Assembly (NCBI RefSeq): GCF_005222835.1
Contig: NZ_STGA01000045.1
Location: forward strand, 62,001-126,000
Length of the DNA: 64,000 nucleotides
From: Rhizobium sp. FKY42
Lineage (GTDB): Bacteria > Pseudomonadota > Alphaproteobacteria > Rhizobiales > Rhizobiaceae
Direction of reading: 5' to 3'
Below are positions 42,576 to 49,864 of the stretch, in pieces. The notes beneath the pieces were generated by a model. That model saw only the letters and a program-made list of their open reading frames with translations. It searched no databases and was not told the origin of the DNA. How positions within the stretch are numbered: position 1 is the first letter of the stretch; the number at the start of each line of letters is the position of its first letter. Both the position numbers and the translations under genes were made by a program.

Positions 42576-43982
42576 TTAGCGGATGAGGCCCATTTCCTTC
42601 GGCAGCCACAGTGTGATGCCGGGGATGAAGGTGATCAACATGAGCGCGATGACCAGCGGCACAAGCCAGGGAACAATGGCCATGGTCGTCCGCTCGACGG
42701 ACAGTTTGGCGACGCGCGACAGAACGAACAGCACCATTCCCAACGGCGGGTGAAGGAGACCGATCATCAAGTTCAATGTCATGATCAGACCGAAATGGAC
42801 CGGATCAATACCAAACTGCTTCACGAGCGGCAGCAGGATCGGCACAAGAATGGTGATTGCCGCAATCGTATCCAGGAAGCAGCCAACGAAGAGCATCAGC
42901 AGGTTCACAAGAATGAGGAAGACCCACTTGTTGCTGGTGATCGACAGGATTGCATCCGAAAGAAGCTGCGCGGTCTGGCTCACAGTTAGCAACCATGCAA
43001 AGACTGAGGCGGCTGCAACGATGAACAGAACCGAAGCCGTGGTCTCCACTGTATCCAGTGTCGCCTTGGCAACCGACTTGAACGTCATGGTACGATAGCG
43101 GACCATGCCCAGGAAAAGAGACCAGAGCACTGCAGCGACAGCTGCTTCGGTGGGCGTGAACCAGCCCATGGTCATGCCACCAATCAGGATGACCGGTGTC
43201 ATGAGCGCCATGACGGCGGAGAAATCAAAGTACCAATCGCACAGCAAAAGTACGATCAGGGCAACGAAGATAGCCCAGTTCAACGACAGACCGAGCATCG
43301 TCAGGATCCAGATGCCGGTCGGCACAGCCATCACGACCAGAACCTCAAGCGATGCACCCAGCAAGTTCTTGATGCTGAAAGGCGTATCGGAACCCCAGCG
43401 CTTGACATAGGCGAAGATCGCGACAGTCACCATCATCAGAACCGTCATCACCACGCCCGGAACAATGCCCGCCATGAACAGGGCGCCGATGGAGACATTG
43501 GCCATCATTCCGTAGATGACGAAGGGCAGCGAAGGCGGGAAAATCGGCCCCAATGTTGCGGATGCTGCCGTCACACCAACCGCTGCTTCCACCGGATAGC
43601 CGTGGTCTTTCATGGCCTTGATTTCGATCGTGCCGATACCCGCCGCATCCGCAAGCGCCGTACCGGACATCCCCGAAAAGACGACAGAGCCGATGATATT
43701 GACCTGCGCCAAACCGCCTTTCATCCAGCCGACCAGCGCGACCGCAAAGGAATAGATACGACCGGTCACACCGGCAATGTTCATAAGATTGCCGGCCAGG
43801 ATGAAGAAAGGAACGGCCAGCAGAGGAAAGCTTTCAACGCCCGCGATCAGACGCTGAGCGGCAATGATATCCGGCGCGACATCATAGAACACGATGTACA
43901 GAACCGACGAAACAGCCATGGAAACCGCAACCGGCAGTCCCAGCACCATCAACGCCAGAAAGGATCCAATCAGGAGAAGCAT
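42576..43982 (-). CDS. dctM: TRAP transporter large membrane subunit, DctM
   Basis: 468 residues from the ATG at 43982 (MLLLIGSFLALMVLGLPVAV); a TTG at 43991 inside the dctQ end is too close to AGAGGA. About 12 hydrophobic segments; landmarks PFFILAGNLMNIAGVTGRIY, GMSGTALADAAGIGTIEIKA, and DPVHFGLIMTLNLMIGLLHP. Slightly longer than usual (~430), from an extended central membrane region (~residues 225-260). Couples sodium-driven uptake to the DctP binding protein. Confidence 0.94.
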   Translation of the reverse strand: MLLLIGSFLALMVLGLPVAVSMAVSSVLYIVFYDVAPDIIAAQRLIAGVESFPLLAVPFFILAGNLMNIAGVTGRIYSFAVALVGWMKGGLAQVNIIGSVVFSGMSGTALADAAGIGTIEIKAMKDHGYPVEAAVGVTAASATLGPIFPPSLPFVIYGMMANVSIGALFMAGIVPGVVMTVLMMVTVAIFAYVKRWGSDTPFSIKNLLGASLEVLVVMAVPTGIWILTMLGLSLNWAIFVALIVLLLCDWYFDFSAVMALMTPVILIGGMTMGWFTPTEAAVAAVLWSLFLGMVRYRTMTFKSVAKATLDTVETTASVLFIVAAASVFAWLLTVSQTAQLLSDAILSITSNKWVFLILVNLLMLFVGCFLDTIAAITILVPILLPLVKQFGIDPVHFGLIMTLNLMIGLLHPPLGMVLFVLSRVAKLSVERTTMAIVPWLVPLVIALMLITFIPGITLWLPKEMGLIR

Positions 43983-43987
43983 ATCAA

Positions 43988-44566
43988 TCAATCCTCTGCG
44001 TTCTGGAAGGCTTCAGGGCGCTCGAGAACGGAATAGCCGCGGCGCATATTGGCAATGAAAACCTGGATGGATCGGCCCAACATCAGGACGAAAGCGGCAA
44101 GAACCGTGTAGAAAACAATGTTTCGGGGCAGTTGGACAGTCACCATTTCCTCGTCGGCGACGATCTCCATGTAGCGCCACATGAGCCAGGAGCCGTAGGC
44201 GAAGAAGCCGATGCGAATGATATCCACCGCCGTGGCCATGATGCGCGTCACGCGTGCCGGGAGATAGTGGTAGAGAACATCGACCTGAATATGCCGCGAC
44301 ATTCGCACGCACATGACCGAGCCCATGAACACGACGCCGATCAGGCAGTTGACGGCGATTTCTTCAGTCCATGCGTAACTGTCATTCAGCACATAGCGCG
44401 TGAAGAACTGGAGAAAGACGCAAGCCGTCATCAACCAGAAGAGACCAAGCGTGAGCCAGTCCTCGAAGGCATAGACCTTGAGATCGACATGAGCCGGCGC
44501 TTCATCGAAAGTATGCGCCAATTCCTCCGGCGTAACCGGTGTATGGATTTCCTGTGCCGCAGACAT
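43988..44566 (-). CDS. dctQ: TRAP transporter small membrane subunit, DctQ
   Basis: 192 residues from the ATG at 44566 (MSAAQEIHTPVTPEEL), with AGGA 9 bp upstream; 44590 (MFLNRKLL) is an alternative, and the open frame to 44734 runs through the hairpin. Four membrane segments: FWLMTACVFLQFFTRYVLN, CLIGVVFMGSVMCVRM, a third near VDIIRIGFFAYGSWLMW, and VFYTVLAAFVLMLGRSI. The W-TEE motif (YAWTEEIAVN) after helix 1 is the family hallmark. Four bp before dctM. Confidence 0.92.
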   Translation of the reverse strand: MSAAQEIHTPVTPEELAHTFDEAPAHVDLKVYAFEDWLTLGLFWLMTACVFLQFFTRYVLNDSYAWTEEIAVNCLIGVVFMGSVMCVRMSRHIQVDVLYHYLPARVTRIMATAVDIIRIGFFAYGSWLMWRYMEIVADEEMVTVQLPRNIVFYTVLAAFVLMLGRSIQVFIANMRRGYSVLERPEAFQNAED

Positions 44567-44676
44567 CAGCAATTTCCTGTTCAAGAACATAGCTTCGCCG
44601 CTCAGGCAGTGGCCTGAATTTTGAAGAGGCCTGTCGATTGACGACAAGGCGCGGATCGAAGCGGATTGCAGAGTGG

Positions 44677-44699
44677 GGCGCGGCGGCTGCCGCCGCGCC
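44677..44699 (-). terminator. Very strong hairpin between dctP and dctQ
   Basis: Perfect 10-bp arms GGCGCGGCGG / CCGCCGCGCC with a CTG loop, 7 bp after the dctP stop. No T run follows. It would protect the dctP message or reduce read-through to dctQM. Confidence 0.6.
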
Positions 44700-44706
44700 G
44701 AAGGCG

Positions 44707-45681
44707 TTACTTGATCGCGCGGATGGCGTCCCAATCAGCCTTTTCGTAACCGAAATCCTCGAGTTTGACCTTCTCGATGACGTTCTTCTGGAAATCAGCC
44801 TTATCGACTTCCGTGACCGTGATGCCCTTCTTCTTGAACTCGTCGACGAGTTCCTTCTCGCGAGCCTCGATCTTCTTGGTGCCACGCTCCGCTGCCTGTT
44901 GAGCCACTTCGGAGAAGATCTTCTTGTCCTCGTCGGACAGGCTGGTCCAAAGCTTCTTTGAGAAGAGCGTATTCAGGTGATCGACAATATGGCCGCTCAG
45001 GACGATGTTTTTCTGAACTTCGTAGAACTTCTTTGCTTCAATCGTCGTCAGCGGATTTTCCTGCGCATCGACGGTGCCATTTTGCAGGGCAAGATAAACT
45101 TCGGCGAAAGCAATCGGCGTCGTGTTTGCACCGCAGGCACGCGGCATTGCAAGGTAGGCAGGCACATCCGGAACACGCATCTTCACGCCCTGCAGATCCG
45201 CGCATTTGGAAATCGGCTTGTTGGATGTGGTGTGGCGCGTGCCGTAATAGGTGACGGCTGCGATGTGGTTGCCGGTCTTATCCTCGTAGCCCTTTGCCAG
45301 ACGCTTGAAGACGTCACTCTTGGTGTAGGCTATCAGGTGGTTCGCATCACGAAAAATGTAGGGATAATAGGTAACGCCGATCGGCTTGAAATCACGCGCA
45401 GCAAAGCTGGAGCCGGAGATGATGATATCGACCGTACCAAGTTTGAGGCCCTGGTTGATATCCGCTTCCTTGCCAAGCTGCGAAGCCGGGAAAACGTCGA
45501 TCTTGTAGCGACCGTTCGTCCGCTTTGCGATTTCCTGCGCCGCCCAGACGGATTCCGTGTGGAACGGCTCGGACGTTTCATACACATGCGCCCACTTGAG
45601 CGCCGTTTCAGCATGCGCTGAAAGGGTTGATGCCACGATGACTGCGGCAGCCCCCAGCAATGTCTTGAATCTCAGTTTCAT
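44707..45681 (-). CDS. dctP: TRAP transporter periplasmic binding protein, DctP
   Basis: 324 residues. Signal peptide MKLRFKTLLGAAAVIVASTL with cleavage after SAHA. DctP features: ALKWAHVYETSEPFHTESVW, FPASQLGKEADINQGLKLG, the carboxylate-binding arginine in CADLQGVKMRVPDVPAY, and AEVYLALQNGTVDAQENPLT. The arginine means a carboxylic acid ligand; uronate or aldonate is suggested by uxuAB and idnD. GGGAGG 5 bp upstream of the ATG. 55 bp after the GntR gene. Confidence 0.94.
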   Translation of the reverse strand: MKLRFKTLLGAAAVIVASTLSAHAETALKWAHVYETSEPFHTESVWAAQEIAKRTNGRYKIDVFPASQLGKEADINQGLKLGTVDIIISGSSFAARDFKPIGVTYYPYIFRDANHLIAYTKSDVFKRLAKGYEDKTGNHIAAVTYYGTRHTTSNKPISKCADLQGVKMRVPDVPAYLAMPRACGANTTPIAFAEVYLALQNGTVDAQENPLTTIEAKKFYEVQKNIVLSGHIVDHLNTLFSKKLWTSLSDEDKKIFSEVAQQAAERGTKKIEAREKELVDEFKKKGITVTEVDKADFQKNVIEKVKLEDFGYEKADWDAIRAIK

Positions 45682-45736: not shown

Positions 45737-46450
45737 TCATTTCTCCTTCGGTTGCTCCTCCCCGAAGCTTTCCGAGAATCTCTTTTGCGCCAATGTCAGA
45801 TGACTGCGCATTGCCTCGCGCGCGGCGGCAGGATCGCCCGTCGCCAGCGCATCGCGAATGATATGATGCTCCTCCAGTGCCGATTTCCAGGTATGTGGTC
45901 CCTCGAAATAGCTGGCAAGCTTGGTGAAGTAAGGCGACATGCGTGAATCGTAGATCAGCCCGGTGAAGTGTTTGAGGGCCGAATTTCCGATCATGTCTGC
46001 AATGGCCGTATGAAAATCACGATCGCAGCCAAGCGCTACGTCCGGTTCATCGAGTGAACGCGCCATACGCTGCAGCGTCGCATCGATCCGCTGAAGGCCT
46101 GATGGCGTAACGCGCCGCGCGGCCTCTTCAGCGATCGCGCTTTCGATAAGGCATCGCGCCTCCAAAATTTCCAGCGGACCTTCGGTGTCTTCCAGTTGGC
46201 GAAGCTCACCAGACCCTTGCGATCTCTGGTTGATATAAACACCCGATCCCATACGGATCTGTATGTGACCCTCAACCTCCAGGACGATCAGCGCTTCACG
46301 GACCGTCGGCCGAGAGACCGCAAAGCGCTCGGCAAGCTCACGCTCCGGCGGCAGACGTGTACCGGGCTTTAACTCACCGGCTTCTATCAGCGCGCGTATC
46401 TGTTCCGCGACCTGCCGATAAAGGCGGCGCGGCTCCAAAGCCACGAACAT
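45737..46450 (-). CDS. GntR-family (FadR subfamily) regulator of the uronate/TRAP operon
   Basis: 237 residues from the ATG at 46450, placed 6 bp after GGGGAGGG; the frame is open to 46486, where it would run into the operator. Winged helix at ~10-75 (RQVAEQIRALIEAGELKPGT, LPPERELAERFAVSRPTVRE, IRMGSGVYI), FCD domain after (DRDFHTAIADMIGNSALKH). First gene of the operon. The clear palindrome at 46488-46504 in its leader suggests autoregulation, resembling UxuR/ExuR-type control by a uronate or KDG-path intermediate. Confidence 0.92.
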   Translation of the reverse strand: MFVALEPRRLYRQVAEQIRALIEAGELKPGTRLPPERELAERFAVSRPTVREALIVLEVEGHIQIRMGSGVYINQRSQGSGELRQLEDTEGPLEILEARCLIESAIAEEAARRVTPSGLQRIDATLQRMARSLDEPDVALGCDRDFHTAIADMIGNSALKHFTGLIYDSRMSPYFTKLASYFEGPHTWKSALEEHHIIRDALATGDPAAAREAMRSHLTLAQKRFSESFGEEQPKEK

Positions 46451-46487
46451 TGAGCCCTCCCCGCGCGCCCTCTCCCGACGCGCCATC

Positions 46488-46504
46488 GGTCAGATTGTCT
46501 GACC
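46488..46504. promoter_or_regulatory. Palindromic operator upstream of the GntR-TRAP-uxu operon
   Basis: GGTCAGA-TTG-TCTGACC, perfect 7-bp arms; read on the minus strand TTGGTCAGACAATCTGACCGA contains the FadR-subfamily pattern TnGT...ACnA. Located 38 bp upstream of the GntR start. Confidence 0.75.
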
Positions 46505-46559
46505 AATTTCCACTATGGGTTAATTCCTGCAGGTGTCAAGCGGGAAAGTTAAGGAGATG

Positions 46560-47642
46560 CTAAGAGGCAGGAGCATCGATCGGACTTGGCAATCTGACAC
46601 CGTATTCCTCTGCGAGAGCGCTGAATGCATGAGACGTGGCCGGATCAAGTTGAACGCCTGCGGCCTCTCGCTCCCGCGCGACACGCCATTCGCGATCGCC
46701 CGGCGCCATGACTTCGCCACCCTCTCGCGGACGCGATCCACGCAACTGTTCCAGATATCTCTGCATTCCTGCGTCGAACGTCGCTCGATCCACGAAGGCT
46801 TCCGGCTTCAGTGCCAGCACGAAAGCACCCATTTCTCTAGGCGCTGCAAAATCCGGTCCACCCATCGGAGCGATGTCGAACGAGAGGCGCATGCCGGACA
46901 GAACGGCACTGAAGATTTCGGCAACACCTGCCAGTGCAGCCCCTTTGAACCCGAAAGCCGCACCGAGCGGCGCCAGCATTTCAGTTGCGTTCGCGTCCGT
47001 CGTATCAACACCATTATCATCCGACGCGACCGCTGGCGGCAGGGGCAGGCCGAGGCTGCGGTAAAGAAGAACGCGATTAAAGGGAACAGCGCTCGTTGCC
47101 ATGTCCAACAGCCAGGGCGCATCTCCAGAGACGGGAACCGCGACACTGATCGGGTTCGTGCCGTGAAAGCGCTCAGCACCGTCATGCAAGCGGACAAAAC
47201 TATCGGAGTTACAGAACGTGATGCCAACAAAGCCTTTCTCGGCCGCATGAAGCGAATAGGCGCCTGCCGGACCGAAGTGCGATGTATTGCGGATGGCAAC
47301 GGCGCCGATCCCGAATTGACCGGCAAGATCTATTGCAAGGTCCATTGCCTCGTATGCGGCCAACGCGCCATGAGCATGGTCGGCGTCCAAAGAAGCCACC
47401 GCACCGAAACGTTTTGCGACCTTCAAATCGGGCGCCTTATTGACCCGTCCGCCATTCAGGACCTGCACATAGTGGGGTAGCAGCCGTATGCCGTGGCTAT
47501 CCACGCCAAACCGCGCTCCATGCATCATGGCGCGCGTGGCGGCCTTTGATGTCGGCTGATCGGCACCCACGGCCAACAGGATGTCGAACGTAAATCGCTC
47601 AACTTCAGCCAGCGTCAGTCGGGGTTCGATGTTGTGGTCCAA
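46560..47642 (-). CDS. Malate/L-lactate dehydrogenase (Ldh2) family oxidoreductase
   Basis: 360 residues from a TTG at 47642 (reading LDHNIEPRLTLAEVERFTFD), with GGAAGAG upstream. No ATG lies at the front of the frame, and the open frame to 47720 would place the inverted repeat 47661-47686 inside the gene, so a start near 47642 is preferred. Family marks: SHGIRLLPHYVQVLNGG with the catalytic histidine, NTSHFGPAGAYSLHAAEKG, NPISVAVPV, and GAALAGVAEIFSAVLSG. These NAD(P)H enzymes reduce 2-keto acids (malate, 2,3-diketogulonate, ureidoglycolate, pyrroline-carboxylate types). Substrate unknown; the neighbours suggest a keto sugar acid. Confidence 0.82.
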   Translation of the reverse strand: MDHNIEPRLTLAEVERFTFDILLAVGADQPTSKAATRAMMHGARFGVDSHGIRLLPHYVQVLNGGRVNKAPDLKVAKRFGAVASLDADHAHGALAAYEAMDLAIDLAGQFGIGAVAIRNTSHFGPAGAYSLHAAEKGFVGITFCNSDSFVRLHDGAERFHGTNPISVAVPVSGDAPWLLDMATSAVPFNRVLLYRSLGLPLPPAVASDDNGVDTTDANATEMLAPLGAAFGFKGAALAGVAEIFSAVLSGMRLSFDIAPMGGPDFAAPREMGAFVLALKPEAFVDRATFDAGMQRYLEQLRGSRPREGGEVMAPGDREWRVAREREAAGVQLDPATSHAFSALAEEYGVRLPSPIDAPAS

Positions 47643-47660
47643 GAGATCATCTCTTCCATA

Positions 47661-47686
47661 AACGTCTAATGCACACACTAGACGTT
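47661..47686. promoter_or_regulatory. Inverted repeat between the Ldh2-type gene and the double-HTH regulator
   Basis: AACGTCTA and TAGACGTT, perfect 8-bp arms with a 10-bp spacer, about 20 bp upstream of the proposed TTG start and ~40 bp from the divergent regulator start. Good candidate binding site for that regulator. Confidence 0.65.
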
Positions 47687-47723
47687 TCAAATTATATGTG
47701 CAATCCCTTATAGCCACCAATCA

Positions 47724-48710
47724 ATGGGAAATCGCCGCCACCTCATGCAAACAATCAATCGTGTCCCGAAACTGTACCGACAGGCGTATGACGTGCTGGT
47801 CCGCGACATCCGTTCCGGGGCATATCAACGTGGGATGCGGCTGAGCGAAACCCAGATTGCCGAGCGCTTCAGCATAAGCCGGGCTCCAGCGAGGCAGGCA
47901 CTTTATGAGCTCGAGCGGGACGGCTTAGTGCGCAAGGGCGAAGGCCGGGGATACGAGGTTAGCGACTGCGACAGACTGGGCCATTCTCAGCTTGTAGCAG
48001 AGCTGCCTCTTGCAGAAGTCGAACCCCGATCAAGCTGGGAACTCATCTATCCGGAAGTAGAGCTGGAGATCGTCTCGCGCACGGCGCTTGCCAGCTGGCG
48101 GATCAACGAGGCTGTGCTTGCTCGCCACTACGGGGTCAGCCGTACCGTAGCGCGTGATGTAGTTGCTCGTTTGCAAGAACGTGGCATTGTTCGCAAGGAG
48201 ACCAGCGGACGCTGGTTTGCACCTGCGCTAGCGGCCCAGCATACCGAAGAACTGTTCGAACTGCGCTGGGTTCTGGAACCGCTGGCGCTGCAGAAGGCTG
48301 TTCCGCACCTGCCAGAAGGCTTTCTGGCGACACTGCGCGCCAACCTCGAGGCGGCTATGGCAGCGAGGGAAGTCAAAAGCGAACAGCTCGACATTCTCGA
48401 ACAGGAAATGCATGTGGATCTGTTAGGCCATTGCGGCAACCAAGCCCTTTTACGGGCAGTTAGCCTGCCGCAGTCATTGCTTGTTGCTCACCATTTTCTC
48501 TACCGCCAGACAACCCACCTGTTCGAGACGGAACCATTCCTTCCAGAACATCTGTGCATCATCAGTCATCTTGAACGGTGCGATGTTCCGGCAGCTTGCG
48601 AGGCGCTCGTTCATCACCTTCAGGTTTCCCGCCAACGAGCCATGCTGCGCATTGAAGCCGTGGCTAACAGCATTACGCCTGCCGCACTGCCTTATCTTGC
48701 GCAGCTATAG
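47724..48710 (+). CDS. GntR-like regulator with two winged-helix domains and an FCD-type domain
   Basis: 328 residues (a second ATG at 47745 is possible). First winged helix ~15-80: [20 protein letters not shown] with [18 protein letters not shown] second complete one at ~105-168: [20 protein letters not shown] with [18 protein letters not shown]. Then a helical FCD-like ligand domain ([38 protein letters not shown]). Ordinary FadR-type proteins have a single DNA-binding domain and ~230 residues, so this duplication is unusual. Divergent from the Ldh2-type gene and 35 bp upstream of the second enolase-superfamily gene; it probably controls both. Confidence 0.88.
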
Positions 48711-48745
48711 CGGTAGCCATTCGATATCCTGGAGGAGGATCCGCA

Positions 48746-49864
48746 ATGAAAATCACTGCCGTCGAACCGTTCATTCTGCATTTGCCGCTCACATCGGATT
48801 CCATTTCCGACTCCACCCATAGCATCACGCACTGGGGTGTGGTCGGGGCAAAAATCACCACGGCCGACGGGCTTGAAGGCTATGGCTTCACCGGCACACA
48901 CGCGCATCTGGCCTCAGACAGGTTGATCACCGCGTGCATTCGCGATTGCTATACGCCGCTGCTGCTGGGAGAGGACGCGGCGGACCATCAACGTCTGTGG
49001 ACCAAGCTCGCGCGCTACCCTGCCCTGCAATGGGTGGGACGGGCAGGCATTACGCATCTGGCACTTGCCGCCGTTGATGTTGCGCTATGGGATATCGCGG
49101 CCAAAAGAGCGGGCGTTCCGCTCTGGTCGCTGCTGGGCGGCGCCAGAACGGAAAAGCTGGAGGCCTATAACACGGATATTGGCTGGATTTCTTTTTCGAA
49201 GGAGGCGTTGATTGCCGGCTCGGCGCGCGCTGTGGAAGAAGAGGGCTTTACCCGCATCAAGATCAAGGTCGGACATGATGATCCGAACGTCGATGTTGAA
49301 CGGCTTGCGGCCGTGCGCGCCCGTTTGGGGAATAGCATTCGTATCGCCATCGATGCGAACGGGCGCTGGGACCTGCCCACCTGCCAGCGGTTTTGCGCAC
49401 GGGCTGAAGGGCTGGATATCTACTGGTTCGAAGAGCCCATGTGGTATGACGATATTGCCAGCCATGCAGCTCTCGCCCGCAATACACCAATCCCCGTCGC
49501 ATTGGGCGAACAGCTTTACACCGTGGATGCCTTTCGCAGCTTCATCAATGCGGGAGCGGTTCATTATGTGCAGCCGGATGTGACCCGTTTGGGCGGCATT
49601 ACCGAATACATCCAGGTCGCCGATCTGGCGCTTGCAAACCGTTTGCCGGTCGTACCCCACGCCGGTGAGATGAGCCAGGTGCATGTGCATCTTAGCTACT
49701 GGCACCCGGCCTCCATGATCCTGGAATATATTCCATGGATCAAGGACCATTTCCATGAACCCGCCCACGTGAAGGACGGCGTTTTCCTGCGTCCGCAACA
49801 GCCGGGGGCAAGCACGACACCCTTGGCCGAAAGCGTCCAGCGCTACGGTAAATCGCTTTCCTGA
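48746..49864 (+). CDS. Mandelate racemase/enolase superfamily sugar-acid dehydratase
   Basis: 372 residues. Unlike the paralogue at 28213 it keeps the base motif KIK (K172, K174 in RIKIKVG); other active-site residues are D203/N205 in IDANGRWD, E229 in FEEPMW, E255 in LGEQLY and H305 in [10 protein letters not shown] placement fits the mandelate-racemase group of acid-sugar dehydratases, which includes talarate/galactarate, lyxonate and rhamnonate enzymes. Exact substrate unknown. GGAGGAGG lies ~8 bp before the ATG. Probably in one transcript with the regulator; convergent to the hydrolase gene 4 bp beyond. Confidence 0.87.

Follow-up and report, generated by a model that had tools for sequence, protein, structure and literature searches.

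The regulator gene at 47724..48710 (plus strand) of the window, that is, the whole stretch of 64,000 nucleotides of Rhizobium sp. FKY42 analysed here, encodes a GntR/FCD protein with two winged-helix (wHTH) heads per chain, and it lies beside a 24-bp putative operator composed of four half-sites. On balance, we think it probable that an FCD-type dimer with four heads reads these four half-sites and thereby represses the divergent Ldh2 operon as well as itself. GntR proteins rank with the most common repressors of bacteria; those FCD members named here that have been characterised possess one head per chain and two per dimer. A two-headed branch that reaches from the family and the order into other parts of the phylum, together with a sharply conserved four-part operator in one clade, offers a test of how head duplication affects specificity. 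Furthermore, such an operator makes it possible to predict from sequence the targets of uncharacterised regulators, and it ties an uncharacterised group of Ldh2 dehydrogenases to a likely control site.

The gene was delineated from the list of open reading frames, Pfam and the homologue alignment, and as called it encodes 328 amino acids. The start is probably the ATG at 47745, giving 321 amino acids, since codon 1 of the close homologue L009 is ATA and its codon 8 encodes Met. The first-pass annotation had read two winged-helix domains followed by an FCD domain in these 328 residues, and this was borne out. Pfam GntR (PF00392) scored 72.5 bits against a cut-off of 27 in two matched stretches, and FCD (PF07729) scored 43.6 bits (cut-off 24.3) over residues 176–300. 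When excised, head 1 (residues 1–92) reached 57.4 bits to Pfam GntR, and head 2 reached 25.0 bits (E 1.5e-5), slightly under the curated cut-off of 27. Profile-profile comparison of the two heads, using an alignment of 88 homologues, gave a probability of 98.6 and an E-value of 8.6e-16. Based on Pfam and conservation, wHTH1 (47772..47960, plus strand) spans residues 17–79, with the motif S52-R53-A-P-A-R57 and a G-R-G wing. For wHTH2 (48036..48227, plus strand; residues about 105–168, with the motif S139-R140-T-V-A-R144 and W164 in the wing), the profile comparison and a model were considered in addition. The FCD domain (48249..48623, plus strand; Pfam and conservation) carries E226, H230, H276 and H298, which we take to be the FCD metal ligands.

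R53 and R140 are both invariant in 88/88 homologues (57/57 close and 31/31 distant), as is W164, and by eye head 2 is at least as well conserved as head 1; these homologues were retrieved with a two-headed query, so the presence of both heads partly reflects selection. The four metal-site residues are found in all 57 close homologues, and in the 31 distant ones E226 is kept in 30, H230 in 27, H276 in 29 and H298 in 31. The linker measures 25–37 residues across homologues. No NCBIfam model came near its cut-off for this protein, and in the FKY42 genome separate places match its first and second parts, e.g., residues 19–86 and 109–306. With its two heads, the protein departs from the one-wHTH-per-chain trait of the characterised FCD members named here, and on sequence grounds it is filed as a variant within the FCD subfamily of the GntR superfamily.

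The AlphaFold2 prediction of the whole chain, made with two alignment rows, had a pLDDT of 45.6 and was poor for most of the chain; head 1 alone was fair, with block means of 69–80 over residues 21 to 80. The prediction of wHTH2 plus FCD with five alignment rows reached 71.6, and three of these five rows are one-headed relatives with their wHTH aligned to head 2, so that the model depends on that homology. Head 2 is predicted here with block means of 51–70, comprising helices 108–121, 129–136 and 140–152 and a pair of short strands at about 157 and 164, followed by the FCD helices. The FCD part of this modest-confidence model contains six helices and a C-terminal tail helix. The best fold matches were FCD regulators across nearly the full length (4p9f with Z 17.4 and rmsd 4.8 over 207 residues; 3sxy with Z 15.8). 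Head 2 alone superposes on the DasR wHTH with Z 8.0 and rmsd 2.3 over 63 residues, a value that may also reflect a common arrangement. In the model, head 2 and FCD together resemble an ordinary regulator, complete in itself, with head 1 as an addition. Searching with the family profile retrieved 32 solved sequences; their best-matching stretches correspond to head 1, to FCD or, in 7u5q, to head 2 plus FCD, and there was no sign of a solved structure spanning both heads among these 32 matches, for three of which residue alignments were available.

Two-headed relatives occur well beyond the window. Counting the FKY42 genome itself in each case, matches were obtained in 41/57 genomes of the genus at E 1e-40 (including G489, matched from residue 103), in 38/199 genomes of the family at E 1e-30 (one match covering only residues 13–219), in 43/297 genomes of the order at E 1e-25, and, with the family profile at E 1e-40, in 12/349 genomes of the phylum draw, eight of the twelve lying outside the class. 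A class-wide search with the distant homologue L065 at E 1e-75 gave no match. Among plasmid records, 91 match at 1e-20, with names including Klebsiella and Pantoea, and in 74 of them a single place covers 80% or more of the query; scans of viral contigs returned one short relative. The homologues with displayed names are annotated as GntR or FCD proteins only. In titles and abstract openings of the open-access literature on tandem or two-headed GntR regulators, no GntR/FCD protein with two wHTH domains was found. Judged by these searches, two-headed FCD GntR regulators are a widespread, unnamed subfamily that is common in the family and the order.

The operator was found by an inverted-repeat scan upstream of the homologues, with the loci oriented to the regulator strand. 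In the window it occupies 47662..47685 (unstranded) and reads ACGTCTAATG-CACA-CACTAGACGT, while the consensus is ATGTCTWGTG-TRYA-CACTAGACAT. Previously, a repeat with a 10-nucleotide spacer had been placed at 47661–47686. The inverted repeat in the divergent promoter is indeed exact, with 9-bp arms at 47660–47668 and 47679–47687, but the conserved site is the 24 bp given above, and its inner half-sites lie inside the supposed spacer. The half-sites follow the order (AYGT-N3-RTGT)-N2-(ACAC-N3-ACRT), with two same-direction half-sites per arm and the arms inverted. Four key G:C pairs, namely G3 (47664), G10 (47671), C15 (47676) and C22 (47683), are spaced by 7, 5 and 7 bp. The inner pair G10/C15, 5 bp apart, sits in the core TGTRYACA of the consensus (TGCACACA in the window itself), and the outer pair G3/C22 lies 7 bp outward of it, in AYGT and ACRT. 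Over 42 distinct sites G3, G10, C15, A16, T18, A19 and C22 are invariant, and the four key bases are kept in 53/53 sites (44 distinct) at a threshold of 15, bearing in mind that these four bases are part of the consensus used for the counting. With up to three mismatches allowed, the window contains one match to the 8-10-8 pattern (0.04 expected; a match in 4/100 shuffles). A longer operator pattern with the same tolerance has its sole match on both strands of the 4.9-Mb genome at the window site, while a backward control pattern has three, so chance matches do occur at three mismatches. A Sigma-70 promoter scan of 47560–47800 found none.

Within −500..+30 of the regulator start, the operator scored at least 14 of 22 in 50/57 close loci, compared with 18/1140 shuffles, 1/57 coding controls and 4/31 distant loci; at 16 or more it was present in 48/57 close loci and 0/1140 shuffles. 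The consensus was derived from the same loci as were counted, a circularity that the shuffle and coding controls answer only in part, and relatives neighbouring on the tree are not independent. The single coding-control match is, by its score, the site of L101, whose start was called too far upstream. Apart from L101, which is a carrier, the loci missed at this range are L078, L079, L083 and L084, with the site 884–908 bp upstream, and L092 and L093, with no site. When the range was widened to −1100..+150 at a threshold of 15, 53/57 close and 3/31 distant loci were positive; L091 (14), L111 (14), L093 (12) and L092 fell below. On the tree, the carriers of the close set fall in one clade of 56 rows (support 100/99) that includes the non-carriers L091, L111 and L093, with L092 outside. 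Duplication and repeat co-occur throughout one clade. The refuting condition named in the first-pass annotation, homologues that lack the repeat, therefore gave a split outcome: nearly all close homologues carry it, while more distant two-headed ones are without this sequence.

The position of the operator follows the promoter facing Ldh2 and not the start codon of the regulator, as seen from the loci in which it lies far upstream: in L078 and L084 an SDR-like gene (identified by eye) stands between the operator and the regulator, and L079, L083 and L154 likewise have distant sites. The site of L154 lies about 850 bp upstream and scores 18 of 22; L144, from the same genome, appeared empty in a scan reaching 550 bp upstream, and the longer stretch L154 has the operator. 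L074 carries the operator twice, 130 and 151 bp ahead of the regulator, as neighbouring copies with a slight overlap, which suggests the binding of two dimers. G489, the genus genome matched from residue 103 only, was considered as a natural one-headed close homologue and ruled out, since both heads are encoded in different reading frames (L153, 2598–3558), with the operator intact upstream (17 of 22). This frame break is either a real split gene or a sequencing error.

The constant partner of the regulator is an Ldh2-family (PF02615) dehydrogenase gene (46560..47642, minus strand), which has a probable TTG start 19 bp from the operator. It is divergent to the regulator in 27/28 neighbourhoods, either directly adjacent or separated from it by at most about 2 kb. 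The gene of an enolase-superfamily (MR_MLE) sugar-acid dehydratase (48746..49864, plus strand), probably in an operon with the regulator, neighbours the closest homologues only, at least 80% identity being found in 6/28 neighbourhoods. The locus had been taken as a small sugar-acid module; the evidence does support a locus for the catabolism of an organic or sugar acid, but the version with the dehydratase as its conserved core was rejected on these counts. Further along the minus strand are a one-headed FadR-type GntR regulator gene (45737..46486; open reading frame list, Pfam and upstream dyad), present at 60% identity or more in 6/28 neighbourhoods, and TRAP transporter genes (42576..45681; DctP by profile, DctQ and DctM by eye), of which DctM or DctP at any identity occurs in 22/28. 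Neorhizobium sp. NCHU2750 has the same gene order. A dyad near TTGGTCAGA-CAA-TCTGACCAA (idealised, as it varies among the seven loci) abuts the FadR-type start codon at 46486–46506 in the window and in six related loci, and is probably the autoregulatory site of that gene. Among solved structures, the TRAP binding protein (44707–45681) is closest to sialic-acid-binding proteins (4mnp, 182.8 bits); no sialate genes were seen among the window open reading frames read.

The dehydratase matches the solved 3tj4/4h19 over its full length (741 bits) and the Ldh2 protein is close to the solved 1z2i (515 bits), all of them presumably Agrobacterium proteins. Clues to the substrate of the dehydratase may therefore already exist with 3tj4/4h19. 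Since 4h19 holds D-ribonohydroxamate, a five-carbon aldonate would be a fair guess, and no firmer than that, for the substrate. Given the constancy of the Ldh2 neighbour, an acid of the Ldh2 step is a more likely inducer than one of the dehydratase step.

For the four-headed dimer, we propose the following course. The regulator would dimerise through its FCD domain, giving four wHTH heads per dimer. One pair of heads, most likely wHTH2, which adjoins and is joined to the FCD domain, would read the inner TGTRYACA core in the way of an ordinary FCD dimer, and the other pair, wHTH1, would read the outer guanines. At this site, which lies 19 bp from the start of Ldh2 and 38 bp from the called regulator start, the dimer would repress both divergent transcripts, until its FCD domain takes up an acid handled by the Ldh2 pathway and the repressor comes off the DNA. 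We prefer this reading because each arm contains two half-sites, the FCD domain is complete, including all four residues of the metal site, and the inner core equals an ordinary FCD-dimer operator; in addition, R53 and R140, the putative base-reading arginines of the two heads, would provide one arginine for each of the four G:C pairs. The 25–37-residue linker would allow head-to-head geometries other than the proposed row of four.

An alternative that we consider unlikely, while giving it some weight, is that one head pair alone reads the DNA specifically, the other wHTH serving in protein contact (dimer or tetramer assembly) or in non-specific DNA contact, and the outer bases representing a promoter element or a weaker second dimer site. 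The right arm of the operator is better conserved than the left, in which the non-key positions 1, 2 and 5–8 vary and carry 0.3–1.2 bits, and such a skew towards CACTAGAC could be caused by a promoter element. A long dyad is no proof of two heads either, as a 9-3-9 dyad also accompanies the one-headed FadR-type neighbour, and the GntR relative NanR makes its dimer-dimer contact by an N-terminal extension (PMC8012715). However, the base-reading arginine position is invariant in both heads (88/88), and the outer G3 and C22 show no less invariance than the inner G10 and C15, both of which speak for two reading pairs. The first-pass annotation had instead suggested a lone monomer with one head on each inverted arm. 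Two heads, two arms and a linker of 25–37 residues agree with this idea, but there are two half-sites in each arm, the inner core corresponds to the operator of a dimer, and the intact FCD domain belongs to a type that dimerises (PMC7797058); the monomer thus appears improbable and was abandoned as the main reading. Slightly less probable still is that another regulator uses the repeat as its operator, or that it is an Ldh2 promoter element, and that it merely travels with the module, for although the divergent Ldh2 gene in 27/28 neighbourhoods means that co-occurrence cannot separate site, Ldh2 and regulator, the GntR-type half-sites with a VanR-type core suit the encoded protein, and the FadR-type neighbour has its own different dyad and is present in only 6/28.

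Turning to the distant homologues, the L065 clade (37–38% identity to the window protein) has TATG-centred upstream sites such as GATTTTTG-TATG-CAACAATC, with which the best conserved 20-mers of three reference loci coincide. The frame G-N6-G-N4-C-N6-C occurs in at least one site in 7 of the 12 loci examined (L131, L132, L134–L137 and L038; not L133 and L138–L141). L034, L036 and L066 also show the 7-5-7 frame, and L031 is without it. A blind period-7 scan of the 31 distant loci gave 4/31 compared with 4.2% in shuffles, a weak excess, with a period of 6 being equally good. No clear non-coding site was seen in subgroups B, C, D, F and G of the distant loci, and no convincing one in six loci outside the class (L147–L152), of which L150 alone has a weak GC-rich frame match with 7/10 dyad positions. 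These results do not support a universal frame for all two-headed regulators; by sequence comparison, the 7-5-7 frame is firm in one clade, likely in a second and suggested in a third. L148–L150 share a different near-perfect dyad around TGTACA (AAAATGTACATTTTAT), which in L148 stands some 302 bp upstream of the matched region. For the subfamily as a whole we tentatively suggest, with a chance a little short of even, that the dimer lays four winged helices in a row on half-sites whose guanines are spaced by 7, 5 and 7 bp, each guanine being read by a single arginine, and that the clades changed the outer letters (GTCT, GATT, GACT) and kept the frame. Such a row of four winged helices per dimer would, if true, be a mode that we found described for no GntR protein.

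In comparison with known systems, the PRD-type PTS regulators also have two HTH domains per chain before the sensory part, but their sensory domains are PRD and EIIB and they are not GntR proteins (PMC3302838). E. coli NanR, likewise a GntR repressor of the FCD type, resembles the window protein in its enlarged N-terminus and in having an operator of several parts, whereas its three cooperating one-headed dimers assemble on a repeat operator via a 32-residue extension with no second wHTH (PMC8012715). The wHTH2-FCD model superposes on solved FCD GntR proteins (McbR, TM0439 and FadR; the 4p9f and 3sxy matches above), which are without the extra N-terminal wHTH. Atu1419 of Agrobacterium fabrum belongs to the VanR group, which has a six-helix FCD domain, while the FadR group has seven helices (PMC7797058). 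It is a one-headed FCD regulator binding ATGTATACAT, and Arg45 of its helix 3 reads the essential G3, whose partner C8 lies 5 bp away; changing G3/C8 abolishes binding (PMC7797058). The shared SR motif suggests that R53 and R140 correspond to this Arg45. The short VanR-type palindrome TGTATACA may have its counterpart in the TGTRYACA inner core, which is present here but within a larger conserved site, the putative operator. Atu1419 (PMC7797058) shares with the window protein the wHTH-FCD architecture, the TGTRYACA core, key G:C pairs 5 bp apart and an arginine at the matching SR of helix 3. It differs in having one head per chain, a 10-bp palindrome and a tetramer able to loop two palindromes, in contrast to the two heads per chain and the 24-bp operator with four half-sites of the window.
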